Assembly: GCF_000374165.1 (NCBI RefSeq)
Contig: NZ_KB893752.1
Span: 1 to 39,139, forward strand
Reading direction: 5' to 3'
DNA length: 39,139 bases
Source of the DNA: Parafrankia elaeagni
GTDB lineage: Bacteria; Actinomycetota; Actinomycetes; Frankiales; Frankiaceae
Part shown: positions 4,457 through 30,804 of the stretch, piece by piece
How positions within the stretch are numbered: position 1 is the stretch's first letter
How the letters are laid out: each line of letters begins with the position of its first letter
The notes under the pieces: generated by a model
Database searches by the model: none
Seen by the model: only the letters and a program-made list of their open reading frames with translations
What the model was told of the DNA's origin: nothing
Translations under genes and position numbers: made by a program

Positions 4457-4873
4457 TCAGCCGAACCCGCGGAAGGTCCCGTCAGGATCGACGTTGTCGG
4501 CGAAGTTCGCGAAATCCAGGTTGGCCAGCGAAAGATTGTTTTCGACACTCCACATCCAGGCCGGTACCACCCGGAACCAGCGTCCCGGCTCGCGCCGAAG
4601 ATCAATCACCAGAATCGGCATCTCCGAGTCGCGAACCGTCACACCATCGACGACGAAGACGAAGCTTCGACGAGGCGAACCCGCCAGCGCCATCACCTCC
4701 TCGATGGTGAGGCCGGCGAATCTCAGCTCGCTGACGAAGGAAAGCCCGGCGGCGAAGCCCTCGGGCGACGGGGCTGAACTCGCCGCGCAGACAGCGTGCC
4801 AGGCGGCATCATCAGAGAAATCGGTGCGCAGCACCAGGGAGTTCAGCGTCGCGGGAAGAGTCGACACCGGCAT
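4457..4873 (-). CDS. DUF6924-type small protein
   Basis: A 138-residue soluble protein. The blocks SLVLRTDFSDDAAW (12-25), FVSELRFAGLT, the Leu/Val-rich ILVIDLRREPGRWFRVVP and the C-terminal WSVENNLSLANLDFANFAD with final GTFRGF are, as I recall, the signature of DUF6924, a family of small actinobacterial proteins of unknown function. ATG 4873 lies 62 bp inside the 3' end of the MFS gene, which is a longer overlap than normal for this operon, but I see no better start. Being on the same strand it may be the fifth gene of the PKS operon. I see no evidence for its role. Confidence 0.75.
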   Translation of the reverse strand: MPVSTLPATLNSLVLRTDFSDDAAWHAVCAASSAPSPEGFAAGLSFVSELRFAGLTIEEVMALAGSPRRSFVFVVDGVTVRDSEMPILVIDLRREPGRWFRVVPAWMWSVENNLSLANLDFANFADNVDPDGTFRGFG

Positions 4874-6410
4874 AGTCTCGCAGACGAGTGGTCTCGGCCG
4901 GTGCGGGAAGCCGACGCAGGTGACGCGCGAGGGCCGACGGGTGCAGCGAGACCAGGCTGACGGCCGCGCCGAGGGCCACCAGGCCGGCGGCGACCTGCAG
5001 GGCGAGTGCGTAGCCGCTGACGAAGGCGTCGGCCGGAACCGCTCCGGCCGCGAGTGCGGACTCCTGACGGGTCAGCAGGATGGCACCGGTCAGCGCGATC
5101 CCGAAGACACCCGAGACCTCCCGTGCCGCGCTCACCACCGCCGACGCCGTTCCGGCCTGGCCACCTGCCGTCACCGCGAGCATTCTTTCGGTCAGTGGTG
5201 TGGTCAGTGCCGAGCCGGCGCCGATGCAGGCGAGGCCCGGGAGAAGGTCGAGGAAGTCGCTGCCCACCCCTGCCCGGGAGACCAGCACCAGCCCGACCGC
5301 GACCACCGCGAGGCCGCCGGCCACCGTCCAGTGGGCACCGGCTGTCGCTGACAGTTTCGCCGCGACGGGAACGGTCAGCACCAGCAGGACGGCGACCGGG
5401 ACGAACGCCATCCCGGCCCGGGTCGGGCTGAAGCCGAGCACGTCCTGCAGGAACAGCGAGGTGAAGAAGAAGACACCGTTGATGCCGAGCCCCCACAGCA
5501 CCTGGGCGACCGTGCCGCCGCTGAACACCGGGTGCCGGAACAGCGACATCTCGACCATCGGGTCCGGTACGACCCGTTCGACCAGCACGAACAGCACCGC
5601 CGCCGCGACGGCCAGCGCGAGCATTGTCAGGATCAGGAATGAGGTGTACCCGTGCTCCGGCCCCTGCAGCAGCGCGTAGGTGATGGCGAACAGCGCCGCT
5701 CCCGAGGTGAGCAGCCCCGGCAGGTCCAGCTTCGACAGGTCCGGCTTCGACAGGTCCGGCTTCGACCGTCCGCCGCGGCTGCGAAGCGGAGGTCGGGTGG
5801 CGCGGGGTGCCGGCTGGGTGGGAAGGGCACGCAGGCCGACAGCCAGCGCCGCGAGGCCGACCGGGACGTTCAGGTAGAAGATCCAGCGCCAGTGCCAGTG
5901 CTGCGCGACGATGCCGCCCGTCACGGGGCCGAGGGCCAGCGCGAGTGCGACCGCGGCCGTCCACACTCCGGCGCCGAGCTGTCGGCCGCGGTTGTCGACG
6001 TCGGTGGCCAGCACCGCGAGGGTGGCCGGCATGATCAGCGCGGCGCCGCCGCCCTGCACCAGGCGGGCCGAGATGAGGAGGTCGCCGGAGTTCGCCGAGC
6101 CGGCGACCGCCGACGAGCCGACGAAGACCACCAGGCCCAGCAGGAACATCGGCCGGCGGCCGTGCAGGTCGGTGAGCCGGCCGCCGACCAGCAGGAGCGT
6201 CGAGAACGACAGGATGTAGCTGGTCGCCACCCATTCCAGCTCGGAGACGCTAAGCCCCAGTTCGGACTGCAGCGTCGGCAGGGCGACGTTCAGGACCGTG
6301 TTGTCCATGGCGACCACGAAGGCGGCGGTCGCCACCGCTGCCAGCACCAGCCGGGACCGTCCCGCGGCCCTCACCGCATGCCCCTGGGACTCCCGTCCGG
6401 AGACAGTCAC
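4812..6410 (-). CDS. MFS transporter, DHA2 (14-TM) drug/proton antiporter type
   Basis: A 532-residue membrane protein with about 14 hydrophobic segments. Family motifs are visible: AMDNTVLNVALP at 34-45 (DHA2 motif D1), GGRLTDLHGRRPMF at 76-89 (motif A) and LALGPVTGGIV at 158-168 (motif C). The loop after the sixth segment carries three KPDLS-type repeats (about 217-229). GTG 6410 overlaps the carboxylase stop as GTGA, so translation is coupled. As the last step of a ligase-PKS-carboxylase operon it probably exports the lipid or polyketide, although most PKS lipids of this kind in mycobacteria use MmpL proteins instead. A role in drug resistance is the alternative. Confidence 0.85.
   Translation of the reverse strand: MTVSGRESQGHAVRAAGRSRLVLAAVATAAFVVAMDNTVLNVALPTLQSELGLSVSELEWVATSYILSFSTLLLVGGRLTDLHGRRPMFLLGLVVFVGSSAVAGSANSGDLLISARLVQGGGAALIMPATLAVLATDVDNRGRQLGAGVWTAAVALALALGPVTGGIVAQHWHWRWIFYLNVPVGLAALAVGLRALPTQPAPRATRPPLRSRGGRSKPDLSKPDLSKLDLPGLLTSGAALFAITYALLQGPEHGYTSFLILTMLALAVAAAVLFVLVERVVPDPMVEMSLFRHPVFSGGTVAQVLWGLGINGVFFFTSLFLQDVLGFSPTRAGMAFVPVAVLLVLTVPVAAKLSATAGAHWTVAGGLAVVAVGLVLVSRAGVGSDFLDLLPGLACIGAGSALTTPLTERMLAVTAGGQAGTASAVVSAAREVSGVFGIALTGAILLTRQESALAAGAVPADAFVSGYALALQVAAGLVALGAAVSLVSLHPSALARHLRRLPAPAETTRLRDYAGVDSSRDAELPGAAHRFL
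5721..5765. repeat. In-frame 3 x 15-bp tandem repeat in the MFS loop
   Basis: Three adjacent 15-bp units (5721-5735, 5736-5750, 5751-5765); the last two are identical and the first differs at one base. Read on the minus strand they encode consecutive S-K-P-D-L / S-K-L-D-L units in the cytoplasmic loop of the transporter. The reading frame is kept. Confidence 0.9.
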
Positions 6411-7999
6411 AGCGGAATGTTCCCGTGCTTCTTCGGCGGCATTAGCTCGCGTTTGTTCCGTAATGCCCGTAACGCTCGGGTGACCTCGACCCGGGTTTCG
6501 GACGGCGCGATGACGGCGTCGATGTACCCGCGGTCGGCGGCCGGGTAGGGCGAGGCGATGCGGCTTCGGTACTCCGCGGTGAAGGTGGCCGCCGCCTGGT
6601 CGCGTTCGGCGCCGGAGAGGGCGGCCAACTGCCGGCGGTGGAGAATGCTCACCGCTCCGGTCGCCCCCATGACGGCGATCTCGGCAGTCGGCCAGGCGAG
6701 GTTCACATCGGCGCCCAGATGCTTGGAGCCCATCACCGCGTAGCCGCCGCCGTAGGCCTTGCGTACCACCACCGTCACCAGCGGCACGGTCGCCTCGGCG
6801 TAGGCGTAGAAGAGCTTCGCGCCGCGCCGGATGATTCCCAGTTCCTCCTGCTGTCTGCCCGGCATGTAGCCGGGGACGTCGGTGAACGTGAGCAGCGGGA
6901 TGTTGAACGCGTCGCAGACCCGCACGAACCGGGCCGCCTTCTCGGAGGCGTCGATGTCGATCACGCCGCCGAGCGCCCGTGGCTGGTTCGCGACGACGCC
7001 GACGGAGCTTCCTTCGACCCGGCCGAACCCGCAGATGATGTTCGGGGCGAACTCCGCGGACACCTCGAGGAAGTCGCCCTCGTCGACCACCCGCCGGATC
7101 ACCTCGGCCATGTCGTACGACTGGTGCTGCGCGTCGGGCACCATGGTGTCGAGTTCCCGGTCGCGGTCGGTCACCGTCAGGGGCTCCGGCGGCGCGGCGT
7201 AGCTGGGCGGCGGGTCCTCGCAGTTGTCGGGCAGGAAGCCGAGCAGGACCCGAACCCAGTCGAGCGCGTCGAGCTCGTCGGTGGCCAGATAGTGGGTGTT
7301 GCCCGCGACCGCGGCGTTGATCCCGCCGCCGCCGAGCTCGTCGAGCGTGGTCCTCTCGCCGGTGACGGCGAACACCACGTCCGGCCCGGTGACGAACATG
7401 TGCGAGGTGCCGTCGACCATCACGGTGAAGTCGGTGACGGCCGGCGAGTACGCGGCCCCACCGGCGCAGGTCCCCATGATCAGCGATATCTGTGGCACCC
7501 GGCCCGAGGCCAGCACGTTGCGGCGGCCGATCTCGGCGTAGTAGGCCAGCGACGCGACGCCCTCCTGGATGCGTGCCCCACCGGAGTCGTTGATCCCGAT
7601 GATCGGGCAGCCGGTCCTGATCGCCAGGTCCATCATCTTGCAGATCTTTCGTCCGTGCGCCTCGCCCAGACTGCCGCCGAACACGGTGCGATCCTGTGCG
7701 AAGACGCCGACCTGCCGGCCGTGTACCGTCCCGAAACCGGTCACCACGCCGTCGCCGGCCGGCCGGCGGTCGCCGAGGCCGAACTCGTGGCACTGGTGGC
7801 GGGCCAGCGCGTCGAACTCGGAGAACGTCCCCGGGTCGAGGAGCAGGTCGATGCGTTCCCGCGCGGTCAGCCGGCCCGGGGTCTGTTGCCGGTCGGCCGT
7901 GCCCCGGGGCCCGGCGGGCAGTGGCTGTTCCCCGCGCTGACGCAGCTCCACCAGCCGGGCCACGGCCGTGGTGCGGCCTGCGGAGTCGGCGATCGTCAT
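6407..7999 (-). CDS. Acyl-CoA carboxylase, carboxyltransferase (beta) subunit, AccD/PccB type
   Basis: 530 residues, the normal length for actinobacterial AccD/PccB. It moves CO2 from biotin to an acyl-CoA. The two crotonase-like halves are complete: TPGRLTARERIDLLLDPG (40-57), the oxyanion-hole segments SGGARIQEG (139-147) and TCAGGAAYSPA (177-187), then ITDFTVMVDGTSHMFVTGP-like core, DVPGYMPG, KAYGGGYAVMGSKHLGAD (414-431) and the C-terminal PPKKHGNIPL. The residue after GGxY, which I recall is Asp in propionyl-CoA carboxylases, is Ala421. No biotin carboxylase or epsilon subunit is in the window, so partners must come in trans. ATG 7999 overlaps the PKS stop as ATGA. The context suggests it makes the PKS extender unit, like AccD4. 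Confidence 0.92.
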   Translation of the reverse strand: MTIADSAGRTTAVARLVELRQRGEQPLPAGPRGTADRQQTPGRLTARERIDLLLDPGTFSEFDALARHQCHEFGLGDRRPAGDGVVTGFGTVHGRQVGVFAQDRTVFGGSLGEAHGRKICKMMDLAIRTGCPIIGINDSGGARIQEGVASLAYYAEIGRRNVLASGRVPQISLIMGTCAGGAAYSPAVTDFTVMVDGTSHMFVTGPDVVFAVTGERTTLDELGGGGINAAVAGNTHYLATDELDALDWVRVLLGFLPDNCEDPPPSYAAPPEPLTVTDRDRELDTMVPDAQHQSYDMAEVIRRVVDEGDFLEVSAEFAPNIICGFGRVEGSSVGVVANQPRALGGVIDIDASEKAARFVRVCDAFNIPLLTFTDVPGYMPGRQQEELGIIRRGAKLFYAYAEATVPLVTVVVRKAYGGGYAVMGSKHLGADVNLAWPTAEIAVMGATGAVSILHRRQLAALSGAERDQAAATFTAEYRSRIASPYPAADRGYIDAVIAPSETRVEVTRALRALRNKRELMPPKKHGNIPL

Positions 8000-10900
8000 C
8001 GGTCCACTCCCGGCGTGCTGGTGGTGGTCTCGGCGGTCACGGCGGCTGTGGACGGCGCGGCGGGGCGGCGGGAATGGCGGGGACGGCGGGCGAGACGGGC
8101 GGCGAGATGGCGGGCCACGGCGTCGACGTCCGGCCGGTCGACGAGCGAGAGATGATCTCCCGGCAGGACCACAACCTCGAGGTCGTCGCAGCATTCGTCC
8201 CAGCCCAGCGCCAGGTCGGTGCGGTGGTAGCGCTCGTCCAGCGCTGTCATCACCGCCTCGGGCCGTTCGGCCCGGTAGAGAATCACCGGGCCGGCGTACC
8301 GCCGGGGCCGGTACCGTTCGGCGATCCGGGCGTCGAGGTAGGACGTCCGCTGGTGGGCGAGCACGCCGGGGCTCATCCCGAGACCGGCGTCCGCGATCGC
8401 CTTCGTCAGCAGGTCGACCTGCTGGTCCTCCGGCATTCCGGCCAGGGCGTCGACGGCGACGTCCAGCGTCGTGTCGTAGGTCTGTTCGATGTAGGACACG
8501 AAGCGGGCAAGCCGGGCGGAGACCAGGTCGTGGGCCGACCGGCCGGGCGCGGGTGCGGGCGCCGGCAGCGGCTGGATGCTGTCGATCATCGCGACGAGAT
8601 CCACCGTCTCGCCCGCGTCGACGAGCTGCACCGCCGCCTCGTAGGCCAGCACGCCACCGAAGGACCAGCCGGCCAGCCGGTAGGGGCCGGCCGGCTGGAA
8701 CTCCCGTAGCAGCTCGACGTAGCGAGCGGCCTTCCGTTCGACGGTCCGGATCTCGTCCAGCCGCTCGAACCCGACGCAGCCCAGCCGGGCGGGCAGCTGC
8801 GACACCAGCGGGTGGTAGACGCTGGACGTCCCGCCCGCGGGGTGGAACAGGAAGAGCGGTGCTCCGTCGCCGAGCGGGCGCAGGAACCGCACCGGCGACC
8901 CGGTGTCCCCCTCGAACCGGTCGCGCAGCAGGTCGGCCATCGCCGCCACCGTCGGTTCGGCGAACAGCTCGGTCGTGCTGACCCGCGGCCCCCCGGCCAG
9001 GGAGTCGGCCTGCCCGCCGACGCCGGCGGCGGATCGTTCGTCCAGATGCGTCTGGACCGCCTCGACGAGCCGGGCGGCGGCCGCCTCGTCGCCGCCGAGC
9101 GCATGGAACGAGTCGGTGACGCCGATCGCGTCAGTGACGCCACTCGCACCGTCCCGGCCGGTCGCGCCGTCCCGGTCATCCCGGCCCAGGGCCTCCCGCC
9201 ACAGCCCGGCCAGCCACCGCTCGGTGGCGTCGCGCGGCCCGACCCGCGTCGGCCCGGGCGACGCCACCGGGGACGCCTTCGACAGACCGAGCTCGCGGGC
9301 CACGTGGTGTTCGAAGTCGCTCAGGCTGGCGCCCTGCAGCAGCATCCGGGCGGGCAGCGCCACGCCGAAGTCCGCCTCGACGGCGTTCTTCGCCCGCATC
9401 GCCATCAGCGAGTCGAGACCGAGCTGGGTCAGCGGCACATCCGGGTCCACGTTCCCGGCCCCGTCCCCGTCCCCGTCCCCGAAGCCCATGATCGAGGCGA
9501 GTCGGGCCCGGATCCGTTCGGTCGCGGCCGTGCGGGCCTGGTCGGCGGGCAGCGCCAGCAGCGCGGGCACGCCCATCCAGTCGCCACCGTTCGGCCGGCC
9601 GCCGCCGGTGTCCGCGGACGGGCTGGTGCCGGCACCGGTGGTCCGGCCCGGTCCTGCCAGCTCGGTGAAGAACGGCATCGTGGCCAGGGCGGGGAACAGC
9701 TCGACCGCCGCGGCTACGTTCACCCCGGTCACCCCGGTCACCGGGCGGTCGGTGACCAGCACCGCCTCGAGCGCCTCGAAGCCCTCCGCCGGGCTGATCG
9801 GCGCGAGCAGCACGTTGTCGTTGTCGCGGGCGCCACCGATGCCGGACCACGCGCCCCATTCGATGCTCGTCGCGGGCAGCCCGTCGGCGCGCCGCCGCCG
9901 GGCGAACGCGTCCAGCCAGGCGTTCGCCGCCGCGTAGGCACCCTGCCCCGGTGAGCCGAACAGCGCCGCCGCCGACGAGAACAGCAGCAGCCAGTCCAGG
10001 TCGATGCCCCGGGTGGCCGCGTGCAGCCGCAGCGCACCGTGCACCTTCGGCCGCCAGACCCGGTCGAGGCTGGCCCGCTCCAGCCCGAGCACGACACCGT
10101 CGTCGAGCACACCCGCCGCGTGCGCCACACCGTGCAGCGGGACGCTGTCGGCGACAGCGGCCTCGACCAGCCGCCGGGCGACCGCCGGCTCGGCGATGTC
10201 GCCGGTCACCACGACGACGTCGGTACCGGCCCGTCGGATGTCGTCGAGTTCCGCGCCGGCCGCCGCGGACGGGCCGGACCGGCCGTTGAGGACGACGCGC
10301 CGCGCGCCGCGGTCACCGAGCCACCGCGCCAGCGACAGCCCCAGCCCTGACAGACCCCCCGTCACGACATAGCTGCCGGGACGAACCACCGGCCCCACCG
10401 CGTCATCGGAACTCACCGCGTTGCCGGGGCTGGCTGCCCGGACGGCGTCACCGGCGGGATACAGCCGGCCGACCAGGCGGGTAGCGCCGCGCCAGGCGAC
10501 CTCGTCGTCGGCGGTACCGGCCAGCAGCTCGGCGACCACGGACTCCCCCGCCGTCCCTCGCCGGTCCCGGGCCGTGTCCCCGTCCCCGCTGACGTCCGCG
10601 TCGACCACGGTCGCGGCGAGCTCCGGGTGTTCGAAGGCGAGGACCCGGACGATTCCGCGCAGACATCCACCGGCGGGGTCACCCGGCCCGTCGAGCGCCG
10701 CCGCGCGCTGGGTCACCACCCACAGTCGGATCGGCCCCCCCGGTCCGGCCGTCGCGGCCCGGACCATCTCGGCCGCGGCGAACACCAGGTCGGCGGCCGC
10801 GGCGGCAGTCGGGTCGACGGAGGCTGCATCGGCCTCGAGCGGAACCGCCGGCGGGCAGACGAGCACCAGACCGGTACCCGTCCGATCAGGGTCGTCCGCC

Positions 10901-13900
10901 GGCCGTTCCAGGACGGCAGCGGCCCGCCCGGTGCCGTGGACGGTGGCCACCCGGTACCCGGCCGCCCGCAGACCGACCTCGACCTCGACCGCGAGCCGGC
11001 CGGCGACGACGCTGCCGCCACCGCTGGCTACGTCGACGATCAGCCAGCTGGCAGGCGCGGGGCGCGCCGACTCCGCGGGCAGCGGCGCCGGATCCCACCG
11101 GGTCTCGTACAGCCGGCGTGCCAGCGGAACGGGCACCGCGGAATCCGCCAGGGCCCGCAGGTGGACGTCCCGAGCCTCGAGTAGCACCTCCCCGTCCGCG
11201 CCGAGGAGCTGCACGGTGCCGCGGAGCACGTCGGCGTCCACCCGACGCAGCCGCGCCCGGCAGCGCCCGCCCCGGCCGGGGTCGGCGAGGACGCGCAGCG
11301 AGCCGACGCCGACCGGTACGTACCACCGGCGCGCCTCCTGCCCCTGGCTCGCCGGGAGCGACCGGCCGGCGGCCGCGAAGACCTGCAGGCAGAGATCGAG
11401 CAGGGCGGGATGCACGACGAACGCGCCGTCCGCCGGAGCCGCCGGGCCGAGGCCGACCCGGGCGGTCGCCCACCCGCCGTCCTGGTCCGTCGACGCACCG
11501 GCCAGGGCCGCGTCGACGCCGGTGAAGGCGGGGCCGTAGGCGTGGCCGATCTCGGCGAACAACCGCGGGACGTCCACCTCGACGGCGTCGACCAGCGGGT
11601 CCCAGTCGTCGTCCCACCCGAGGGGGTCGCCGACGGTGACCCGTGCGGTGGCGTGCTTCTCCCACGGCAGCGGCGTCCCGGGTCCCGCCCCCGCCCCCGC
11701 ACGCGCACCCGCCCCCGCACGCGCACCCGCCCCCGCGCCCGCGCCCGCGCCCGGACCGATGCCGGCGCCGCGGGCGTGGACGTCGACCACCGCGGCGAGC
11801 CTGCCGGTGACCGTCACCGACGTCGTCAGCTCCACCCGGCCTTCGACGGACAGCAGTCCGAGCAGGTCGAGGTCGTGCACGCTGACCTGCGCCGGGTCGA
11901 CGCCGAACGCCTCCGCGGCGGCGGCGAGCACCGTCTCCGCGAACCCCGCGCCCGGCATGACGGCGGCGCCGCGCAGCCGGTGGTCGCCGAGCCACGGCAG
12001 CAGATCCGTACCGGTGACGGTGCGCCACAGGTGGCGGCCGCCCTCGGGCAGTTCGACCCGCTGGCCCAGGAACGGGTGCTGGCCGGCGGGTGGGAGGACA
12101 CCCGCGCCGCGGGCCGGAGCCTGGCCGGCGGGCAGGGGCGGGCTGAACCAGTGGCGTCGGCGGTGCCAGCGGGTCCGCGGCGGCACTGCCGCCGGCGTGG
12201 CGGCCCGTGGGCGGACGAGTGGCACCAACCGGTGCCGGTCGACGGCCACACCGTGCAGGTCCAGCTGCGCCACGGCGGCGCGTAACGACACGTGGTCGTC
12301 GGTGTCGCGGCGGCCCAGCACCACCGGTGCCGGCTCCCGCACCCCGCTGGCCCGCAGGGTCTCCCGTATCGAGGCCACCGCGACCGGATGCGGCGCGATC
12401 TCGGCGACCGTGGTGAAGCCGTCCTCGGCGGCCGCGGCGAGCGCCTGGGTGAACCGCACCGGACGCCGTGCGTTCGCCGCCCAGTACTCGGCGTCGAAGG
12501 CGGGCACCGACCTCGGGTCGGTCAACGCGGTGCCGTACAGCGGAATCCGGGGCGCCCGGCCTCGGACGTCGGCGAGCGCGGCGGTGAGTTCGGCGAGCAC
12601 CGGGTCCACCGCCGGCGAGTGCGCCGCACCCCGGACGTCGAGGGCCCAGGCATCGCGGCCGAGGGCCCCGGCGTGCTCGACGAGCGCCGCCACCCCGGCC
12701 GGGTCGCCGGCGACGACACACTGCGTGGGCGAGGAGTACACGGCGACACCGACACCGGGGTAGGCGTCGTCCTCGGCGGTGATCTTCGTGAGCTCGGCGG
12801 CGGACAGCCCCACCATCGCCATCGCGCCGATCCCGGTGATCTCCACGGACTCCAGCAGCCGGGAGCGGACGGCCATCACCCGCACGCCGTCGGCCAGGTC
12901 CAGAGCTCCGGCGACGACGGCGGCGGCGACCTCGCCCATGGAGTGACCGAGGACCGCGCCCGGCACGACGCCGTAGGAGCGCAGCGTCCCGGCGAGGGCC
13001 ACCTGCATCGTGAACAGCGTCAGCTGCGTGGCGGCGACGCCCTCGATCGCGGCCGTCGACCCGAGCGCCGCGCGGACCGAGAACCCGGCCTGCCGACGGG
13101 TCAGAACGTCGACCGCGGCGACGATCCTGGCGAAGGTCGCGTCCTCGGCCAGCAGGCGGGCGCCCATGCCCCGCCACTGCGAGCCGTAGCCCGAGAACAC
13201 GAACAACGGGCCTCGGGCCGTCTCCGCTCGTTCTCTGCCTCGGCCGCCTGTCGGTCCCGCCGCCACGACGACGTCGGGTCGTCCACTGCGGTCACCACCG
13301 GCGGCGACCGTTCGCAGGCCCGCGACCACGCCGTCGAGGTCGCGGCCGACGACGGCGAACGCGGCCGGCCCGTGGTCCCGGTGATGGGCCAGGATGCCCG
13401 CCGCCTCCGCGAGCCGCATCACCGAGTCCGCCACCCCGGAATCCGCCGACGCGGAGTCCGCCGGCCCGGGATCCGCCGGCCCCGGGTACGCCGTCCCCGG
13501 GTACGCCGTCGCGGCGAGCCAGTCGGCGAGGTCGCCGGCTGCCACCCGCGCCCGGTCCGCGGTCAGCCCCGACACCGTGAGTACCGGGCCGGCGGTGGGC
13601 ACGGCCGGGAGGTCACCGGAGGCGCCCGTCAGCCCCGGGCTGTCGTGAGCGCCGTCGGCCGGTCCGGCCTCGGCGAGGACGACGTGCGCGTTCGTCCCGC
13701 TGAACCCGAAGGCCGACACTCCGGCCGTCGCCCGTCCGCCGTAGCGCGGCCAGGACTGCGGCGCGGGTCCGGTGACGACGCGGAGCCGGGCGGCGGCGAA
13801 GTCGATGAACGGGTTGGGGGCGGTGAAGTTCAGGCTCAGCGGGATGTGCCCGTGGTGCAGTCCGAGCACCACCTTGATCAGCCCGGCGATGCCGGCCGCC

Positions 13901-15333
13901 GCCTCGAGATGGCCGAGGTTCGTCTTCACCGAGCCGGTCAGCAGCGGCCGGTCGGGCGGGCGGCCCGCGCCGAGCACCTCGCCGAGGGCGCTGGCCTCGA
14001 TCGGATCGCCCAGCGGCGTGCCGGTGCCGTGCGCCTCCACGTAGTCGACCTGGTCGGAGGCGATCCGGGCTGTCGCGTAGGCCGTCCGCAGCAGGTCGGC
14101 CTGAGCCTGCGGACTGGGCGCCGTCAGACCGTTGGACCGGCCGTCGGAGTTGACCGCGCTGCCCCGGATGACGGCCAGCGCCGGCCGACGCGCCTGCCTG
14201 GCATCGGCCGCCCTTTCGAGCACGACGACGCCGCAGCCCTCGCCTCTCGCGATGCCGTCCGCGCCGGCGGAGAACGTCTTGCAGCGGCCGTCCGCCGCCA
14301 GTGCCCCGCCCAGATCGAAGTTCACGGTCACGGCCGGGGTCAGCAGCAGGTTCACACCGCCGACGATGGCGAGGTCGATCTCCCCGGCCCGCAGGCTCTG
14401 GCTCGCCTGGTGTACCGCCACGAGCGACGACGAGCAGGCCGTGTCGACGGCGACACTCGGCCCGCGCAGGTCGAGCAGGTAGGAGATGCGGCCCGCGGCG
14501 ATGCTCGGCGCCGATCCGGTCGAGGTCCAGGCATCGATCGCGGTCAGGTCGGCGGTGGTCAGGTACGCGTACTCGGCCACGCTGAGCCCGACGAAGACGC
14601 CGGTGCGGGTGCCCCGCAGCGACGACGGCCGGATGGCGGCGTGCTCGAGCGCCTCCCAGACGACCTCGAGCAGAAGGCGTTGCTGCGGGTCCATCAGCTC
14701 GGCCTCACGCGGCGTGATGCCGAAGAACTCCGCGTCGAAACCCTCGACGTCGGCGAGGAACCCGCCCCAGCGGGTCGTGCGGGCGAGCAGCTCCGCCTGC
14801 TCGGGCGCCCTGGCGGCGAACGGCGCCCAGCGCTGCGGCGGCACCTCGCCGACACCGGCCCGCCCGGCGGTCAGGGTCGCCCAGAACTCCTCGGGCCCGT
14901 CGCCGCTCGGGAAGCGGCAGCCGACACCGACAACCGCGATCTCCGCCGGCGCGCCGTGCTCCGCCAGCGTGCTGGGCTCCGCGGGAGCGCCGTGCTGTGC
15001 GGGAGCGCCGTGCTGTGCCGGCGCTGCCGGGCGGGTCCCCGTCGCCGGCCCGTCCGCGGGCGGCAGTGCCTGGGCGTCGCCCGCGCCGGTCAGCACCCGC
15101 GCCAGCAGACGGATGGTCGGGTTCTCCCAGACCAGCGTCGCCGGCAGCACGACGTCCAGGTACTCCTCGATCTCCCCGGTGAGAGCCACCGCGTCCCGCG
15201 AGGCGAGGCCCACCTCGTTCAGTGGCTGGTCGGGATCGACGTCGGCCGGGTCGAGCTCCGCGGTGTCGGCGACCTGCGCGACCAGCCAGGCCACCAGCTC
15301 GCTCTCGGACGGCCGAGGCCCGGACCCGCTCAC
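7996..15333 (-). CDS. Type I polyketide synthase, Pks13-like: ACP-KS-AT-DH-KR-ACP-(degenerate carrier)-TE
   Basis: A 2445-residue single-module PKS. Domains: N-terminal ACP (about 9-85, Ser45 in GLASRDA, a Pks13-like sequence); KS 130-556 with C300, H435 and H475; AT about 709-1010 with S798 (GHSMG) and H905 in GAAHSP; DH about 1085-1395 with H1118 and D1313; KR structural plus catalytic part 1400-1880 with TGGLSGLG, LDD (1743-1745, B-type), K1763, S1787, Y1800, N1804; ACP2 with S1975 (GLDSL); a carrier-like domain about 2035-2140 with Glu2083 where Ser is expected; TE 2146-2415 with S2224 (GWSFGG), D2251, H2394. No ER is present. The TE shares HQRTSYLD and FHPAGG blocks with Pks13. GTG 15333 overlaps the ligase stop (GTGA). 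It should join a ligase-activated acyl chain to a carboxylated extender. Confidence 0.93.
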   Translation of the reverse strand: MSGSGPRPSESELVAWLVAQVADTAELDPADVDPDQPLNEVGLASRDAVALTGEIEEYLDVVLPATLVWENPTIRLLARVLTGAGDAQALPPADGPATGTRPAAPAQHGAPAQHGAPAEPSTLAEHGAPAEIAVVGVGCRFPSGDGPEEFWATLTAGRAGVGEVPPQRWAPFAARAPEQAELLARTTRWGGFLADVEGFDAEFFGITPREAELMDPQQRLLLEVVWEALEHAAIRPSSLRGTRTGVFVGLSVAEYAYLTTADLTAIDAWTSTGSAPSIAAGRISYLLDLRGPSVAVDTACSSSLVAVHQASQSLRAGEIDLAIVGGVNLLLTPAVTVNFDLGGALAADGRCKTFSAGADGIARGEGCGVVVLERAADARQARRPALAVIRGSAVNSDGRSNGLTAPSPQAQADLLRTAYATARIASDQVDYVEAHGTGTPLGDPIEASALGEVLGAGRPPDRPLLTGSVKTNLGHLEAAAGIAGLIKVVLGLHHGHIPLSLNFTAPNPFIDFAAARLRVVTGPAPQSWPRYGGRATAGVSAFGFSGTNAHVVLAEAGPADGAHDSPGLTGASGDLPAVPTAGPVLTVSGLTADRARVAAGDLADWLAATAYPGTAYPGPADPGPADSASADSGVADSVMRLAEAAGILAHHRDHGPAAFAVVGRDLDGVVAGLRTVAAGGDRSGRPDVVVAAGPTGGRGRERAETARGPLFVFSGYGSQWRGMGARLLAEDATFARIVAAVDVLTRRQAGFSVRAALGSTAAIEGVAATQLTLFTMQVALAGTLRSYGVVPGAVLGHSMGEVAAAVVAGALDLADGVRVMAVRSRLLESVEITGIGAMAMVGLSAAELTKITAEDDAYPGVGVAVYSSPTQCVVAGDPAGVAALVEHAGALGRDAWALDVRGAAHSPAVDPVLAELTAALADVRGRAPRIPLYGTALTDPRSVPAFDAEYWAANARRPVRFTQALAAAAEDGFTTVAEIAPHPVAVASIRETLRASGVREPAPVVLGRRDTDDHVSLRAAVAQLDLHGVAVDRHRLVPLVRPRAATPAAVPPRTRWHRRRHWFSPPLPAGQAPARGAGVLPPAGQHPFLGQRVELPEGGRHLWRTVTGTDLLPWLGDHRLRGAAVMPGAGFAETVLAAAAEAFGVDPAQVSVHDLDLLGLLSVEGRVELTTSVTVTGRLAAVVDVHARGAGIGPGAGAGAGAGARAGAGARAGAGAGPGTPLPWEKHATARVTVGDPLGWDDDWDPLVDAVEVDVPRLFAEIGHAYGPAFTGVDAALAGASTDQDGGWATARVGLGPAAPADGAFVVHPALLDLCLQVFAAAGRSLPASQGQEARRWYVPVGVGSLRVLADPGRGGRCRARLRRVDADVLRGTVQLLGADGEVLLEARDVHLRALADSAVPVPLARRLYETRWDPAPLPAESARPAPASWLIVDVASGGGSVVAGRLAVEVEVGLRAAGYRVATVHGTGRAAAVLERPADDPDRTGTGLVLVCPPAVPLEADAASVDPTAAAAADLVFAAAEMVRAATAGPGGPIRLWVVTQRAAALDGPGDPAGGCLRGIVRVLAFEHPELAATVVDADVSGDGDTARDRRGTAGESVVAELLAGTADDEVAWRGATRLVGRLYPAGDAVRAASPGNAVSSDDAVGPVVRPGSYVVTGGLSGLGLSLARWLGDRGARRVVLNGRSGPSAAAGAELDDIRRAGTDVVVVTGDIAEPAVARRLVEAAVADSVPLHGVAHAAGVLDDGVVLGLERASLDRVWRPKVHGALRLHAATRGIDLDWLLLFSSAAALFGSPGQGAYAAANAWLDAFARRRRADGLPATSIEWGAWSGIGGARDNDNVLLAPISPAEGFEALEAVLVTDRPVTGVTGVNVAAAVELFPALATMPFFTELAGPGRTTGAGTSPSADTGGGRPNGGDWMGVPALLALPADQARTAATERIRARLASIMGFGDGDGDGAGNVDPDVPLTQLGLDSLMAMRAKNAVEADFGVALPARMLLQGASLSDFEHHVARELGLSKASPVASPGPTRVGPRDATERWLAGLWREALGRDDRDGATGRDGASGVTDAIGVTDSFHALGGDEAAAARLVEAVQTHLDERSAAGVGGQADSLAGGPRVSTTELFAEPTVAAMADLLRDRFEGDTGSPVRFLRPLGDGAPLFLFHPAGGTSSVYHPLVSQLPARLGCVGFERLDEIRTVERKAARYVELLREFQPAGPYRLAGWSFGGVLAYEAAVQLVDAGETVDLVAMIDSIQPLPAPAPAPGRSAHDLVSARLARFVSYIEQTYDTTLDVAVDALAGMPEDQQVDLLTKAIADAGLGMSPGVLAHQRTSYLDARIAERYRPRRYAGPVILYRAERPEAVMTALDERYHRTDLALGWDECCDDLEVVVLPGDHLSLVDRPDVDAVARHLAARLARRPRHSRRPAAPSTAAVTAETTTSTPGVDR
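11684..11753. repeat. Gly/Ala-coding tandem repeat inside the DH domain
   Basis: Two perfect 18-bp units (11701-11718 and 11719-11736) flanked by degenerate 6-bp units. On the minus strand they code for an Ala-Gly run with Arg at regular intervals (about residues 1194-1218), between the two hot-dog halves of the PKS dehydratase. The frame is intact. Confidence 0.85.
13456..13515. repeat. 15-bp tandem repeat in the KS-AT linker
   Basis: Four adjacent 15-bp units of decreasing similarity, coding on the minus strand for TAYPG/PADPG pentapeptides (about residues 608-626) in the linker between the ketosynthase and acyltransferase. The unit keeps the reading frame. Confidence 0.75.
14981..15016. 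repeat. 18-bp tandem repeat in the ACP-KS linker
   Basis: Two identical 18-bp units (14981-14998, 14999-15016), with a third, diverged copy at 14945-14962. They code for AQHGAP units (about residues 106-130) in the linker between the N-terminal ACP and the KS domain. Confidence 0.9.
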
Positions 15334-17216
15334 AGGTCGTGCCCGATCGAACCCGACCGGATGTCCCACCGGCCGTCGAGATAGGCCTGCCGGCAGGCCC
15401 TCCGTGCGATCTTCCCGCTGGAGGTGCGAGGCACCGAGCCCGGCTCCACCAGCAGAAAGTCGTGCAGGGAGACGTTGTGCTCGGACGACACCGCGGCGCG
15501 CGCGGCCCGGGCGACCGCGCCGGTCTCGTCCGCCGCGCCGTCCGCCGCGCGATACCGCTCGGCGACGACAACGACACCCTCGCTGCCATCTCCGCCCTCG
15601 CCGCCATCTCCGCCCTCGCCGCGGCCCCCGCCGGTGGTCGGCACGGTGAAGGCCGCCGTGCGATGTCGGCCCACGGCCGGATGCGCCTCCTCGACGGTGG
15701 ATTCGACATCCTGCGGGTAGACGTTGCGACCGTCCACAATGATCATGTCCTTGATGCGGCCGGTCACGAAGAGCCCGCCCTCGTGCCAGATCCCCAGGTC
15801 GCCGGTGCGCAGCCAGCTCCCGGTGGCTGTCGTCTCGGCCCGGGCGCCCGCCGCGGTGTCGCGCAGGACCGCCCGGAACACCTCCTCGCTGGTCTGCTCC
15901 TGGCGCCAGTAGCCGCGACCGACGTTGTCGCCGCGGATCCAGATCTCGCCCACCGTGCCGTCCGGCAGTGCCCGGCAGGTCACCGGGTCGACGATGCGCA
16001 GCTCCTGATCCACCGGGGCGCCGCTGGACACGAGTTCGGTCCGTTTCGCCGCCGGGCCGGCCGGCGGTTCGAGGTGGCCGAGCGCGAGAGCGTCGGAGTC
16101 GGCGAACACGGTGGTCGGGCTTTCGTCCATCGGACTCACGCAGACCAGCACGGTCGCCTCGGCCAGACCGTAGGTCGGTCGCAACGCCGTCTCCCGGAGC
16201 CCGCACCCGGCGAACGCGGCGTAGAAGCGCCTGAGTGTGTCGGCCCGGACCGGCTCGGCGCCGTTGGCGAAACTCCGCACACGGTCCAGCGACAACTCGG
16301 CCTTGTCCGCCTCCCTGACCCGCTTGACGCAGTAGTCGTAGGCGAAGTTCGGCGCCGCGGTGACGACAGCCGGATACCGGGATGTCTGCTGCAGCCACCG
16401 CAGCGGCCGCTGCACGAAGGCCAGCGGGTCGAACACCACAGAATGGGCGCCCGCGACGACCGGACCGGCGATCGACAGGATCAGGCCCATGTCGTGGAAA
16501 AGCGGAAGCCAGCTGACGGTGGTGTAGTCCGCACTGCGCTGTACCCGGTGTCCCGCCACCGCCTGGTAGGCGTTCACCACCACGTTCCCATGGGTGATCA
16601 CCACTCCGGCCGGTACCCGGGTCGACCCGGACGTGTACTGCAGATAGGCCACGTCCTCGGCGGTGGGCCGCGGGCGGGTGGCCCAGGCCAGGTCGTCGAA
16701 GTTCTCGCCGGTGAAACGGTCGACGGCGACAACCATCACCTCATGGGAGGACGCTCCCTGGGCCGACCATTCCTTGACGAGGGTCTCCACCTGGTCGAGC
16801 AGCGGCGCCGAGGTGACGACGCAGCGCGGATCGCTGTCGGCGAGCACCGCCGCGAGCCGGTCGGAACTGACCCCGTACCCGGGCGGGAAGAGCGGCACCG
16901 CCACCGCACCGGCCGCGAGCGCACCGAGGAAAGCGACCGCGTAGTCGAGGTTCTGCGGCGTCAGCAGGGCCACCCGGTCACCTGGCTGGACGACCCGACC
17001 CAGCCCGACCGCCACCGCCCGCACCCGTTCGTGGAGCTCCCGGTAGGTCAGTGTCGTCTGAACTCCGTCGCGGTCCCGCTCATAGTCGACGAACGTCATC
17101 GCGGGCTCGTCCGGTTCGTGTTCCGTCCAGTGCACGAGGTGGTCGACGAGGGTACTCGCCCTCGTCGGAACCACCGGAAGATCGCCGCGGTCGTCGGCGG
17201 TCGTGGAAATTCTCAT
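15330..17216 (-). CDS. Fatty acyl-AMP ligase (FadD32-like)
   Basis: 628 residues, ANL superfamily. It activates a fatty acid to the acyl-adenylate for transfer to an ACP. Visible: YERDRDGVQTTLTYRELHERV (N-terminus typical of FAALs), ATP loop YTSGSTRVPAGV (194-205), PTYGLAEATVLV (347-358), TGDLG (471-475), GRIKDMIIVDGRNVYPQDVE (486-505) and catalytic Lys602 in TSSGKIARR. The stretch after YGLAE is long, consistent with the FAAL insertion that favours AMP transfer over CoA. A Gly/Glu/Asp repeat (529-547) is unusual. ATG 17216 has GGAG upstream. It is the first gene of the coupled operon, so it probably loads Ser45 of the PKS N-terminal ACP, as FadD32 does for Pks13. Confidence 0.92.
   Translation of the reverse strand: MRISTTADDRGDLPVVPTRASTLVDHLVHWTEHEPDEPAMTFVDYERDRDGVQTTLTYRELHERVRAVAVGLGRVVQPGDRVALLTPQNLDYAVAFLGALAAGAVAVPLFPPGYGVSSDRLAAVLADSDPRCVVTSAPLLDQVETLVKEWSAQGASSHEVMVVAVDRFTGENFDDLAWATRPRPTAEDVAYLQYTSGSTRVPAGVVITHGNVVVNAYQAVAGHRVQRSADYTTVSWLPLFHDMGLILSIAGPVVAGAHSVVFDPLAFVQRPLRWLQQTSRYPAVVTAAPNFAYDYCVKRVREADKAELSLDRVRSFANGAEPVRADTLRRFYAAFAGCGLRETALRPTYGLAEATVLVCVSPMDESPTTVFADSDALALGHLEPPAGPAAKRTELVSSGAPVDQELRIVDPVTCRALPDGTVGEIWIRGDNVGRGYWRQEQTSEEVFRAVLRDTAAGARAETTATGSWLRTGDLGIWHEGGLFVTGRIKDMIIVDGRNVYPQDVESTVEEAHPAVGRHRTAAFTVPTTGGGRGEGGDGGEGGDGSEGVVVVAERYRAADGAADETGAVARAARAAVSSEHNVSLHDFLLVEPGSVPRTSSGKIARRACRQAYLDGRWDIRSGSIGHDL
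15586..15621. repeat. 18-bp tandem repeat in the acyl-AMP ligase
   Basis: Two perfect 18-bp units (15586-15603 and 15604-15621) coding on the minus strand for GEGGDG-type hexapeptides in the C-terminal subdomain of the ligase. The frame is maintained. Confidence 0.9.
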
Positions 17217-17967
<751 letters not shown>

Positions 17968-19194
17968 GTGGCGGCAGTGGCGGCGGGCTCGGACCGGTCG
18001 GAGCAGGATGCCGAGGAGGCCCGCAACACCGCGGCGATCGAGGAGCTGCGTCGGGCCGTCCGCGCCCTTTCACAAACAGCCGCTGACGCCTTCGGCTCGG
18101 TGCCGTGGTTTCCCAGCCTGCCGGCTCAGACCCGGTCCTGGGCCCGCCTGGTCGTCGGGCGCGAGTTGATGATGATGGCGGCGGACATCGCGACACCGCA
18201 GCCCCCACGACTACGGAGCATCTTCTCCGGAGCTCCGCTGGAGGTCACGGGGCAGATCTCTCTCGACCAGATCCTGGAACTCATCCGTCTGACCGTCGAT
18301 GTCGTTCTGAACGGCCTCGACGACGTGATGGACGATACCTCCGCGTCGCTGGTACGCGGAGCTCTGGAACGTTATGGCCGCGAGGTCGCCTTCGCCGCGG
18401 CGGCCGTCTACGCGAAAGTGGCCGAGAACCGCGGCCGGGCGGGCGCCCAACGGCAGATGCTTCTCCTGGACGCTCTGGTCGACGGCGGGGAGGAACAGAT
18501 CGCGGAGCGGGCCTCCGGCCTGTTCCCGCTCGGTGTTCCAGTCCAGGTGATCGGCCTGCTCCCGAGGCCCGACGCCGGCGTGCACGTTTTGCACGAGGTG
18601 ACCCGGACCGCGGAACGGCACCGTGTCACGGTGTGCGCCGCCCAGCGCGGGCGGTACGTCCTGGCCATCCTTCCCGACGCCGCCGCGGGCGCCCTCGCCG
18701 ACCTGGCCTCGCCGAGCAGGTGGAACACCGAGGTGGCCGGCTCCAGCGGTCCGCTCATCACCCACCACACGATTGTCACCAGTGGCATGGTCGGCTCCCT
18801 GAGCGCTGCCGGCCCGGCCACCGCGGCGGTGCTGTCCTCGTTACGGGCCGTTCCCGCCTGGCAGGGTTCTCCCGGCCTCCTTCACGTCGACGACCTGCTC
18901 CCCGAACGCACGTTGTGCGGCGACCAGCAGGCCGCGGACCAGTTGGTCGCCGAATGCCACGGTCCACTCGCCTCCGCCGGACGAGGACTGGTGGAGACGG
19001 TGGATGCTCTGCTCGCCCATGACGGTTCGCCCGACGCCGCCGCGCGCAGCATCCCGGTACATGTGAACACCCTGCGTTACCGCCTGGATCGGGTGATCGC
19101 CCTGACCGGGAAGGATCCCCGCCGCGGCCGCGATGCCTTCGCCCTGCGGATGGCCTTCACCCTGGCACGGACCGGGGGGCACGCCTTCCAGTGA
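17968..19194 (+). CDS. PucR/CdaR-type transcriptional regulator
   Basis: About 408 residues. The C-terminus has the PucR-type helix-turn-helix: VETVDALLAHDGSPDAAARS followed by VHVNTLRYRLDRVIALTGKDP, then FALRMAFTLAR. The middle (RQMLLLDALVDGGEEQIAERASGL, then a GGDEF-like degenerate region with GRYVLAILPD) is the usual CdaR-type layout. The frame is open from 17812, but that extension is Arg-rich and unlike any family N-terminus. GTG 17968 or 17977, both just after a GAGCAGG, is more likely. It is divergent from the PKS operon, so control of that operon is plausible; autoregulation is the alternative. The effector is unknown. Confidence 0.8.
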   Translation: MAAVAAGSDRSEQDAEEARNTAAIEELRRAVRALSQTAADAFGSVPWFPSLPAQTRSWARLVVGRELMMMAADIATPQPPRLRSIFSGAPLEVTGQISLDQILELIRLTVDVVLNGLDDVMDDTSASLVRGALERYGREVAFAAAAVYAKVAENRGRAGAQRQMLLLDALVDGGEEQIAERASGLFPLGVPVQVIGLLPRPDAGVHVLHEVTRTAERHRVTVCAAQRGRYVLAILPDAAAGALADLASPSRWNTEVAGSSGPLITHHTIVTSGMVGSLSAAGPATAAVLSSLRAVPAWQGSPGLLHVDDLLPERTLCGDQQAADQLVAECHGPLASAGRGLVETVDALLAHDGSPDAAARSIPVHVNTLRYRLDRVIALTGKDPRRGRDAFALRMAFTLARTGGHAFQ

Positions 19195-20893: not shown

Positions 20894-21691
20894 ATGACAG
20901 ATGATCTGGGCGCGGCCGGCCTTCGTTTCGAGCGTGACGGCGCCATCGGCTGGTGCGTCATCGACCGGCCCGGTGCGCGCAACGCGCTGACACCGGCTAT
21001 GTACTTCGGTATCCGGCGGGCGGTGAAGCTGGTCAACGCCGATCCCGACCTCGCCGCGCTGATCATCACCGGCACCGGCGACGTGTTCGCACCGGGCGGT
21101 GATCTGGGCAGCCGCTCCGAACCCGGCGACGCCCCGCTGCCCGACCTCACCGGAGCGGACGTGCTGCCGTTCCTGACCGTCCGGGACAGCCCGGCACCGG
21201 TGATCGCCGCGGTCAACGGCATCTGCCAGGCCGGCGGGCTGCTCATCGCGATGATGGCGGACATCGCGGTCGCCAGCGACCAGGCCACCTTCCGCGTCCC
21301 CGAACTGCTGCGGGGTATCCCCGACGCCACCTACGCGGCGGTCCTGCCCGCCCACGTCGGGCTCGCCGTCGCCCGCGACCTGCTGCTGTCGGCCCGTAGG
21401 TTCGACGCCGCGGAGGCCCTGCGGCTCGGCGTCATCAGCCGGGTCGTGCCGCACGAGGAGCTGCGTGCCGCCGCGGTCCAGGCAGCCGGGGAGATCCTGC
21501 AGACGGCGCCCGAGGCCCGGCTGCACGTCAAGCGCATGCTCCACGAGGCGTACGGGCCCATCGACTACCAGACCATGTTCTGGTCACTGCAGAACTCGCC
21601 CGAACCGCGGGAGGGCATGCGCGCCTTCATGGAGAAGCGGGCACCCGGCTGGGTCCCCGACCAGTTCGCCGGCGACGGCACCCGCCGCTGA
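20894..21691 (+). CDS. Enoyl-CoA hydratase/isomerase (crotonase) family protein
   Basis: 265 residues. The crotonase oxyanion-hole segments are FAPGGDLG (65-72) and NGICQAGGLLIA (108-119), followed by MADIAVASDQATFRVPELLRG with E137 at the position of a catalytic Glu of enoyl-CoA hydratase. The second catalytic Glu is not obvious (DATYAAVLPAHVG), so the reaction may be isomerisation or hydrolysis rather than hydration. ATG 20894 has AGGGGAA upstream. It follows the TIM-barrel gene by 12 bp, so it is co-transcribed. It supports a CoA-thioester pathway. Confidence 0.88.
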   Translation: MTDDLGAAGLRFERDGAIGWCVIDRPGARNALTPAMYFGIRRAVKLVNADPDLAALIITGTGDVFAPGGDLGSRSEPGDAPLPDLTGADVLPFLTVRDSPAPVIAAVNGICQAGGLLIAMMADIAVASDQATFRVPELLRGIPDATYAAVLPAHVGLAVARDLLLSARRFDAAEALRLGVISRVVPHEELRAAAVQAAGEILQTAPEARLHVKRMLHEAYGPIDYQTMFWSLQNSPEPREGMRAFMEKRAPGWVPDQFAGDGTRR

Positions 21692-21781
21692 CGCACGGTC
21701 GTTCTGGCACGGCAGCCGGTTCCCCCGCCGGCAGGCGAGGCGTGCCCGGATTCCGACGTTGATTCCCTCGAAGGAGGCACT

Positions 21782-22834
21782 GTGCTTGCGGCACGGCTGC
21801 ACGGCCATCAGGACATCCGGATCGACGAGATTCCCGAGCCGGAACCGGCGGCCGGCCAGGTGAAGGTAGCCGTCGCCCACAACGGACTGTGCGGCACGGA
21901 CCTGTCCGAGTTCTTCGCCGGCCCCCGGGCCTGCACGACCGTGCCGCACCCGCTCACCGGCGCCGCGCTGCCCCAGGTGATGGGCCACGAGTTCGCCGGG
22001 GTCGTGGCGGCCGTGGGGCCGGAGGTCGACGGCGTCGCGGTCGGTGACCGGGTCTGCGTCGAGCCGCTCTACTCGTGCGGGGAGTGCGACCGCTGTCAGG
22101 CCGACCTGCCGCAGCTGTGCCGCCTGGTCATCACCCACGGCATCGCCTCGTCCGGTGGTGGGCTGGCCCAGTACACGGTCGTGCCCCGCGCGATGGTGCA
22201 CCGCCTGCCGGCGTCGATGTCACTCGCCGAGGGCGCGCTGGTGGAGCCGATGTCGGTCGCGTTCAGCGGGGTGCTGCGGTCCGGTGCCGGGCCCGGTCAG
22301 ACGGCGCTGCTTTTCGGCGGTGGACCGATAGGGATCGGGGTCATGTTCGGCCTGCGGGCCGTCGGCGTCGACGACATCCTGCTCGTCGAGCCGGCTCCGG
22401 CCCGCCGCCAGATCATCGAGGCGCTCGGCGTCGCCGAGGTGCTCGACCCGAATGCCTGTGACGTCGCCGACGAGGTGCGCCGCCGGACGGGCGGCAGGGG
22501 TGTCGACGTCGTGCTGGACTGCGCCGGGGCACCCGCCGTCTTCGCGCTCGTCCCGGCCGTGCTGCGCGCGCGGGGGCGGTTCGTGGGGATCGCGGTGACG
22601 GACCAGCCGGTGTCCTTCGCGCCCTGGGTGCTGGCGCGCGGGGAGATCGAGCTCACCGGCTCGCTGGGCTACGGACCCGGCGTGTTTCCGCGGGTCATCG
22701 ACCTGATCGCACAGGGCGCCTATCCGAGCGCGGGGTGGGTCGAGCATGTCGACCTCCACGAGCTGCGTGACGCGCTCGACGACCTGCGCGTGGGGCGCCG
22801 CGCGAAGGTCCTCGTCGACCTCCCGACCAGCTGA
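21782..22834 (+). CDS. Zinc-dependent alcohol dehydrogenase (medium-chain dehydrogenase/reductase)
   Basis: 350 residues. Catalytic zinc ligands are C37 (GLCGTD), H69/E70 (GHEFAG) and E155 (VEPMSVA). The structural zinc loop is C99, C102, C105 and C113. The Rossmann loop is GGGPIGIG (179-186), and VLDCAG lies downstream. The overall type resembles butanediol/sorbitol dehydrogenase-like proteins rather than simple ethanol dehydrogenases. The start is GTG 21782, with an excellent GAAGGAGG ribosome-binding site. It is co-directional with the crotonase and 14 bp from the SDR. It probably oxidises a hydroxyl of the pathway substrate. The cofactor is probably NAD(+). Confidence 0.9.
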   Translation: MLAARLHGHQDIRIDEIPEPEPAAGQVKVAVAHNGLCGTDLSEFFAGPRACTTVPHPLTGAALPQVMGHEFAGVVAAVGPEVDGVAVGDRVCVEPLYSCGECDRCQADLPQLCRLVITHGIASSGGGLAQYTVVPRAMVHRLPASMSLAEGALVEPMSVAFSGVLRSGAGPGQTALLFGGGPIGIGVMFGLRAVGVDDILLVEPAPARRQIIEALGVAEVLDPNACDVADEVRRRTGGRGVDVVLDCAGAPAVFALVPAVLRARGRFVGIAVTDQPVSFAPWVLARGEIELTGSLGYGPGVFPRVIDLIAQGAYPSAGWVEHVDLHELRDALDDLRVGRRAKVLVDLPTS

Positions 22835-22848
22835 CAGGAGAGAACCTC

Positions 22849-29751: not shown

Positions 29752-29863
29752 CCTGTCCACCCCTCCATCGCGCTACTTCGCCGGTCCTCGTCCGCCCGCG
29801 GCAGGCTGTGGTGCCTGCGCAGGGTCCGTCCGCGGCCGGCGGGCAACAACCTTCGATCAGCGT

Positions 29864-30668: not shown

Positions 30669-30804
30669 GCCGGAGCGACGGACCACGCCGGCAGGGGGCC
30701 GGTGGGCGCCACCGGGCAGCACCGCGGGATCGCTCGGCCGCACACCCACGCAAAGACACAGATCCGGCGGAGACTTCCGCCTTGACCAGGAGAGAGGCGA
30801 CCGG

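Follow-up and report, generated by a model that had tools for sequence, protein, structure and literature searches.

The closest described relatives of the locus considered here are the fadD32, pks13, and accD4 genes, a trio that a 2026 paper (PMC13324839) describes as conserved across Corynebacterineae. In the cryo-EM structure of Mycobacterium tuberculosis Pks13 (2024), according to the report (PMC11649247), residues 1074-1172 are similar to the N-terminal half of a dehydratase (DH) and lack the catalytic residues (this region is called DH* below), and an inactive acyl carrier protein (ACP) at residues 1376-1447 precedes the thioesterase (TE). We analyzed a stretch of 39,139 nucleotides from the actinobacterium Parafrankia elaeagni (contig NZ_KB893752.1, assembly GCF_000374165.1; hereafter the window), which carries an operon for a Pks13-like polyketide synthase (PKS) with complete DH and ketoreductase (KR) domains. 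The presence of a Pks13 relative in this fuller form suggests that the host makes a related lipid and gives a hint at the origin of the mycolic acid enzyme.

The operon lies on the minus strand and consists of genes for a fatty acyl-AMP ligase (FAAL), a type I PKS, and an acyl-CoA carboxylase beta subunit (AccD), followed downstream by a gene of the major facilitator superfamily (MFS). The FAAL/PKS and PKS/AccD joins are 4-bp overlaps, GTGA and ATGA, respectively. The genes and the PKS domains, including the ketosynthase (KS) and the acyltransferase (AT), are as follows.

15330..17216, minus strand: FAAL, 628 amino acids (aa), Pfam AMP-binding
7996..15333, minus strand: type I PKS, 2445 aa, GTG start, ACP-KS-AT-DH-KR-ACP-inactive ACP-TE
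15094..15288, minus strand: N-terminal ACP, GLASRDA (Pfam and motif)
13636..14943, minus strand: KS, DTACSSS, EAHGTGT, KTNLGH (Pfam and motifs; in a clade with Pks13)
12244..13203, minus strand: AT, GHSMGE, with GAAHS at the YASH/HAFH position; the carboxylate-pocket Arg is kept (by eye)
11137..12078, minus strand: DH, HRLRGAAVMP and DLCLQ intact (Pfam and motifs)
9844..10377, minus strand: KR, LDD motif, K/S/Y/N intact (Pfam and motifs)
9289..9486, minus strand: second ACP (ACP2), GLDSLMA, approximate limits (Pfam and motif)
8914..9237, minus strand: inactive ACP, LGGDE replacing LGGDS, approximate limits (alignable with the equivalent part of Pks13)
8059..8886, minus strand: TE, FHPAGG, GWSFGG, HQRTSYLD, GDH (Pfam and motifs)
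6407..7999, minus strand: AccD4-like acyl-CoA carboxylase beta subunit, 530 aa, Ala at the PccB-422 position
4812..6395, minus strand: MFS transporter open reading frame (ORF), putative start, conserved in the family

A Pfam scan of PKS residues 1-2381 of 2445 gave the order ACP, KS, AT, PKS_DH_N plus PS-DH, KR, ACP, thioesterase. The original prediction, made from the DNA letters, had named the FAAL, PKS, and AccD trio with its 4-bp overlaps as well as four PKS motifs; the coordinates bear out the trio, and each motif was found (GLASRDA at residue 42, FHPAGG at 2163, GWSFGG at 2222, HQRTSYLD at 2327). The inactive ACP between ACP2 and the TE and the downstream MFS gene go beyond that description. 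The Pks13 order, ACP-KS-AT-ACP-TE with no active reductive domains, does not match this PKS, in which the DH and KR motifs are intact. Two ORFs were dropped in defining the genes: the 595-aa AccD ORF starting at 8194 was a mechanical over-extension (the ATG at 7999 was taken as the real start), and the minus-strand ORF 6234-4843 was a wrong-frame reading of the MFS region.

Kinship of the operon proteins and the proposed reaction

For comparison, 118 relatives were found in named genomes, of which we kept the 80 that ranked highest by likeness to the window TE. Together with the window and nine other loci, less six duplicates, they made a family of 84 PKS loci. Mycobacteriaceae and Streptomyces, as names for comparison genomes, were inferred from gene content and places in the trees.

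A quick KS tree (87 rows) placed 39 family KSs, namely that of the window and 38 of the 83 others, in one clade with an extra Streptomyces-like copy (L141) and nine mycobacterial Pks13s (support 95). Outside this clade fell 37 KSs drawn from the window's genome, from a genome resembling Streptomyces, and from two mycobacterial genomes. A careful tree of 53 rows, with 19 family KSs plus the window and L141, recovered the clade of the family and Pks13 at 100/96, apart from the sampled modular PKSs. The TE told a similar story. Taken alone, it had Pks13 as its best PDB match (169 bits, compared to 82 bits for the best match other than Pks13) and scored 248 bits with the NCBIfam Pks13 model. In the TE tree, one branch (support 96) separated the family and Pks13 TEs from 14 other TEs, with long-branch warnings. 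These were the trees that the original prediction had proposed as a check; the refuting outcome it had named for them, a grouping of KS and TE with ordinary modular PKSs, was not observed, and its name for the PKS, "Pks13-like", holds by the KS clade, the TE clade, and the common inactive ACP.

Its name "AccD4-like" for the carboxylase subunit fared equally well. In the AccD tree, 25 family AccDs, nine AccD4s, and two paralogs from genome G105 formed a clade (support 95), adjoined by a clade of five PccB/AccD5 rows (95). At the position equivalent to 422 of Streptomyces coelicolor PccB (Asp), which we take to be a site with a role in specificity, all 25 family AccDs and all nine AccD4s carry Ala. 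Asp (four) or Cys (one) occupies the site in the PccB/AccD5 rows, Ile in nine further rows, and Tyr in five distant ones.

Malonyl and methylmalonyl ATs carry the motifs HAFH and YASH, respectively. We found GAAHS at this position in the window and GASH in the single mycobacterial Pks13 that was aligned; neither YASH nor HAFH occurred in any of the 83 (of 84) family ATs matched by the search pattern, with one unmatched. The Ala of AccD and the change of the AT motif would fit a bulky 2-carboxyacyl unit and are no proof of it.

Judged from the sequence, the gene layout, the domain order, the intact active-site motifs, the Pks13 and AccD4 clades, the inactive ACP, and the conservation of the MFS gene make it probable, in our estimate, that the operon encodes a Pks13-type condensing system with full reductive domains. 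The most likely function would be a single Claisen condensation of two fatty chains, with reduction and dehydration on the enzyme, followed by export. The FAAL would activate a fatty acid to acyl-AMP and charge the N-terminal ACP with it. A longer acyl-CoA would be carboxylated by the AccD4-like subunit together with a shared biotin alpha subunit, and the AT, in which small residues replace the usual malonyl/methylmalonyl motif as in Pks13, would transfer the 2-carboxyacyl unit to the second ACP. One decarboxylating Claisen condensation by the KS would then yield an alpha-alkyl beta-keto acyl chain. The KR would reduce the ketone in cis and the DH would remove water. The result would be an acyl chain with an alpha branch and probably a 2,3 double bond, which the Pks13-type TE would pass to a polyol or to water, and the MFS protein would export the product. 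Here we infer the substrates, the number of rounds, the product, the acceptor, and export.

An alternative that we regard as unlikely, yet worth serious attention, is a PpsA-like synthase started by the FAAL that adds a single methylmalonyl (or malonyl) unit, with AccD making the methylmalonyl-CoA; its 2-methyl-2-enoic or 2-enoic fatty acid would be released by the TE and exported. A mycobacterial KS, L149, taken for PpsA from the sizes and order of the adjacent PKS genes, was the sister of the family and Pks13 clade in both KS trees. The closest solved structures to AccD were propionyl-CoA carboxylases (S. coelicolor enzyme, 709 bits), ahead of AccD5 (650 bits) and of a PDB chain labelled D4a (520 bits), which from its label we take to be AccD4. 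A DH with no enoylreductase domain would also give an enoyl product. On the other hand, the KS joins Pks13 before it joins the PpsA-like KS, the AT has GAAHS and neither YASH nor HAFH, and AccD groups with AccD4 and carries Ala at the site that is Asp or Cys in the PccB/AccD5 rows.

History of the reductive domains

The original prediction spoke of "extra" DH and KR domains. Both are present with intact motifs; the word "extra" became doubtful when DH* was compared with the family DHs. An alignment of DH* from nine mycobacterial Pks13s with 47 of the 53 family DHs, made with the AT linker excluded (the linker alone scores E 4e-12), had a score of 68.5 (E 2e-10) over 91 columns. Controls scored much lower: 30 column shuffles gave at most 19.5, and six modular DHs of the window's own genome gave 11.6. 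When six family DHs were drawn at a time, the score varied from 35 to 64 in 20 draws. The catalytic His of the family DH falls in an 18-residue gap of Pks13. DH* thus corresponds to a family DH from which the catalytic segment is missing, and for this reason DH and KR may have been present ancestrally and not be additions; the trees do not settle the point.

The inactive ACP before the TE is another feature in common with Pks13. This region of 57 family PKSs aligned with that of Pks13 with E 1e-13 over 93 columns, compared to 0.04 for the control against ACP2. The Ser is missing in 55 of the 57, and the Streptomyces-like L036 lacks the region.

Pks13 fell inside the family in both KS trees, with L133 (Bailinhaonella) outside at 98/90 in the careful tree or 93 in the quick one. 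When the 21 family rows were constrained to form one group that excluded Pks13, the tree was only 8 log-likelihood units worse and was not rejected (p-AU 0.244). Therefore, common ancestry of the family and Pks13 is well supported by the sequences, and nesting of Pks13 within the family is not settled. The simplest history, likeliest though not proven, would start from an ancestor that had both DH and KR; several lines, Pks13 among them, would then have undergone losses, with DH* as a relic. This history needs no nesting of Pks13 in the family.

We find it improbable that a Pks13-like ancestor instead acquired DH and KR from modular PKSs by domain swapping, the DH* of Pks13 being unrelated. 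Domain swaps are common in modular PKSs, and a place for Pks13 as the outside sister was, as said, not rejected. Against such a gain, the family DH aligns with DH* but the six modular DHs of the same genome do not, the presence of DH takes only four changes on the KS tree (49 scored rows), and the best KS trees have Pks13 inside the family.

The wider family and the host genome

The 84 PKS loci came from Frankiaceae, Pseudonocardiales, Streptomyces, and Solirubrobacterales. Told apart by the distance between AT and ACP2 and by motif alignment, 53 PKSs have DH and KR, four (Solirubrobacterales) have DH only, and 27 have neither; these frequencies are biased because the relatives were ranked by likeness to the window TE. 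The four DH-only loci (L070, L072, L077, L097) had no KR model match between AT and ACP2, where the gap is about 352 residues. Among the 53 DH+KR PKSs, the DH model scored in 52 (L071 being the exception) and the KR model in all. The DH His was conserved in 51, the DH Asp in 52, and the KR Lys, Ser, Tyr, and Asn, as well as the Asp of LxD, in all 53. One locus, L057, comes from a record named as a Bifidobacterium breve metagenome-assembled genome; its operon is closest to that of Svornostia, and the contig is probably misassigned.

Neighbor genes were counted in the fetched stretches; some of these end at contig ends, so absences may be incomplete. In the order DH+KR, DH only, and neither, a FAAL was found at 53/53, 4/4, and 26/27 loci, an AccD at 36/53, 4/4, and 9/27, and an MFS gene at 44/53, 3/4, and 18/27. 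The MFS matches at loci with neither DH nor KR were weak (scores 68-199) and were not accepted as the same gene. The MFS protein of the window is 55% identical over 501 residues to that of one related operon. The closest copy, L016 in a genome of the same genus (G002), has the layout FAAL-PKS-AccD-MFS as in the window. Because the nearest copy has the same layout and a FAAL was found at every DH+KR locus, the window included, the operon is not a chance arrangement.

Most loci also have a mycoloyltransferase-like esterase (46/53, 0/4, and 25/27), in all 71 cases (of 84 loci) within 3 kb of the PKS. No such esterase was found in the fetched stretches of the window, L016, five Actinopolyspora loci, and the four DH-only loci. 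Two family esterases were compared with the PDB, and in both the first match was PS1, a corynebacterial mycoloyltransferase (126 and 138 bits). The next matches were Cmt1 and antigen 85 (Ag85) for the L033 esterase; for the L036 esterase a general esterase (77 bits) came just above Cmt1 (73 bits). By eye, the family esterases have the H-x-W-x-Y-W stretch of Ag85, and the example esterases have a signal-like N-terminal stretch, so that from its sequence the enzyme looks secreted. In the esterase tree Ag85 was placed among the family rows (support 90), with a weak split from other esterases (59) and long branches. In three operon-bearing genomes (G006, G011, G052), the esterase adjacent to the PKS was the top match of the esterase family genome-wide.

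A cutinase-family gene lies near the PKS in L117 (13135-13854) and its neighbor cluster (14 loci; one member scanned). Streptomyces and Amycolatopsis are among the loci listed for this cluster. In mycobacteria, a cutinase-like gene is situated near pks13.

TE relatives at E<=1e-30 were present in 17 of 396 genomes from the phylum, namely the window's own genome, two presumed Streptomyces, and 14 presumed Mycobacteriaceae; therefore, the non-mycobacterial family is uncommon. Matches above 300 bits occurred in 5 of the 7 genomes that represent the genus, as well as in 4 of 29 others of the taxonomic family, all four in one genus of eight genomes. Least probable of all, in our view, is an ordinary secreted lipid natural product (a signal or an antibiotic) of an iterative PKS that owes its likeness to Pks13 to ancestry only, with the MFS protein giving self-resistance: this patchy occurrence, the resemblance of the MFS protein to drug efflux pumps (226 bits with an EmrB-type model, cut-off 230), and a PKS-rich genome (44 KS-family matches) speak for it, whereas 53 PKSs from several orders retain the catalytic motifs and mostly stand beside AccD4-like and mycoloyltransferase-like genes that an unrelated iterative product would not need.

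The genome of the window is a draft of 7,589,313 bases in 135 contigs (98% complete, 5.5% contamination). Relatives of Parafrankia are nitrogen-fixing plant symbionts and bacteria of this type are not known to have mycolic acids. A search for the Emb arabinosyltransferase family (PF04602) found no member in this draft, 98% complete genome, and the same search was positive in one of 14 control genomes, Corynebacterium glutamicum. Of the genes of a mycolic acid system, neither Emb nor a family-type counterpart of the mycoloyltransferases was found in the draft. The negative Emb result fits the earlier suggestion of a host possibly devoid of mycolic acids.

Several results weigh against a Pks13-type condensing system with the putative mycolate-like product. 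The best NCBIfam model for the PKS, mycolic_Pks13 (NF040607), scored 1289 bits, below its curated cut-off of 2100. The best PDB match of the FAAL was FadD32 (457 bits; FadD23, 394 bits), and its best NCBIfam models also stayed below their cut-offs: 567 bits for PRK05850 (775) and 562 bits for the FadD32 equivalog NF038339 (975). In the FAAL tree, family FAALs, FadD32, and other FAALs formed separate groups whose branching order had no resolution. Thus, of the label "FadD32-like" given to this gene earlier, the fatty acyl-AMP ligase is borne out, and the tree does not settle whether FadD32 is its sister. The higher PDB score of AccD with propionyl-CoA carboxylase and the tree with Pks13 outside the family, both described above, belong here too. 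For 17 of the 53 DH+KR loci, no AccD turned up in the stretch that was fetched. Some DHs may be inactive, because the glycine of HxxxG is Asp in 15 of the 53 (the window has Gly) and L071 has no DH score. A family-type esterase was not found elsewhere in the window's genome (G000) or in G002, where the best PF00756 matches had 43 and 42 bits; because the window's genome has no detected esterase of this type, transfer to the cell surface is doubtful here.

The surroundings of the operon include one divergent gene.

17812-19194, plus strand: PucR-type regulator, divergent from the FAAL gene

It was dropped as a regulator of the family, as it resembles the corresponding gene of L055 only in the helix-turn-helix; PucR-type genes also occur near other loci of the Pks13-like family. 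A short tandem repeat of GCGAGAT units (17235-17267), within a stretch that is lower in G+C, directly precedes the start of the FAAL gene, and scans for sigma-70 promoters and terminators gave nothing above chance. Elsewhere in the window, an NPP1-family protein similar to necrosis-inducing proteins (26891-27871, plus strand, 203 bits) is encoded in this plant symbiont genome, and catabolic-looking genes occupy 20894-25485 and 29008-38177 (enoyl-CoA hydratase, dehydrogenases, CoA transferase, acyl-CoA dehydrogenase, Rieske oxygenase, amidohydrolase).

Comparison with known systems

We found no report of such a PKS family in the open-access PMC literature; work in subscription journals may exist. 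A broader proposal, which we put forward tentatively and rate a little short of an even chance, is that a mycolate-like lipid pathway exists across actinobacteria that have no mycolic acids. Its components would be a FAAL, a Pks13-type synthase with live DH and KR, an AccD4-type carboxylase, an exporter, and, in most lines, a secreted mycoloyltransferase-like enzyme. The mycobacterial mycolate pathway might then be one simplified branch and DH* a fossil dehydratase. If the function proposed above is true, alpha-branched "mycolate-like" lipids extend beyond the mycolic acids, there is an explanation for the dead dehydratase in Pks13, and a new group of lipids, at the surface or secreted, can be sought in actinobacteria.

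PpsA and FadD26 of phthiocerol synthesis are similar to the present system in that the KS taken for PpsA is the sister of the family and Pks13 clade and in that a FAAL feeds an N-terminal ACP. Unlike the present PKS, PpsA lacks a TE and works as part of an assembly line. The likeness to PS1, Cmt1, and antigen 85 lies in the esterases, with PS1 as first match of both compared and the Ag85-like H-x-W-x-Y-W; as a difference, no such esterase was detected in the window, L016, five Actinopolyspora loci, and four DH-only loci.

Unlike the FadD32, Pks13, and AccD4 system, the operon has a FAAL that does not join FadD32 in the tree, and it includes an MFS gene; the mycolate exporter is MmpL3. Neither the Emb family nor a family-type esterase was found in the draft genome, another difference from the Pks13 system. 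The DH and KR are complete here, whereas Pks13, according to the structural report (PMC11649247), has only the dead DH*. With the Pks13, FadD32, and AccD4 proteins of Mycobacteriales, the locus shares the FAAL-PKS-AccD operon, the N-terminal ACP, the KS and TE clades, the AT motif, the inactive ACP before the TE, and the AccD4-type carboxylase.

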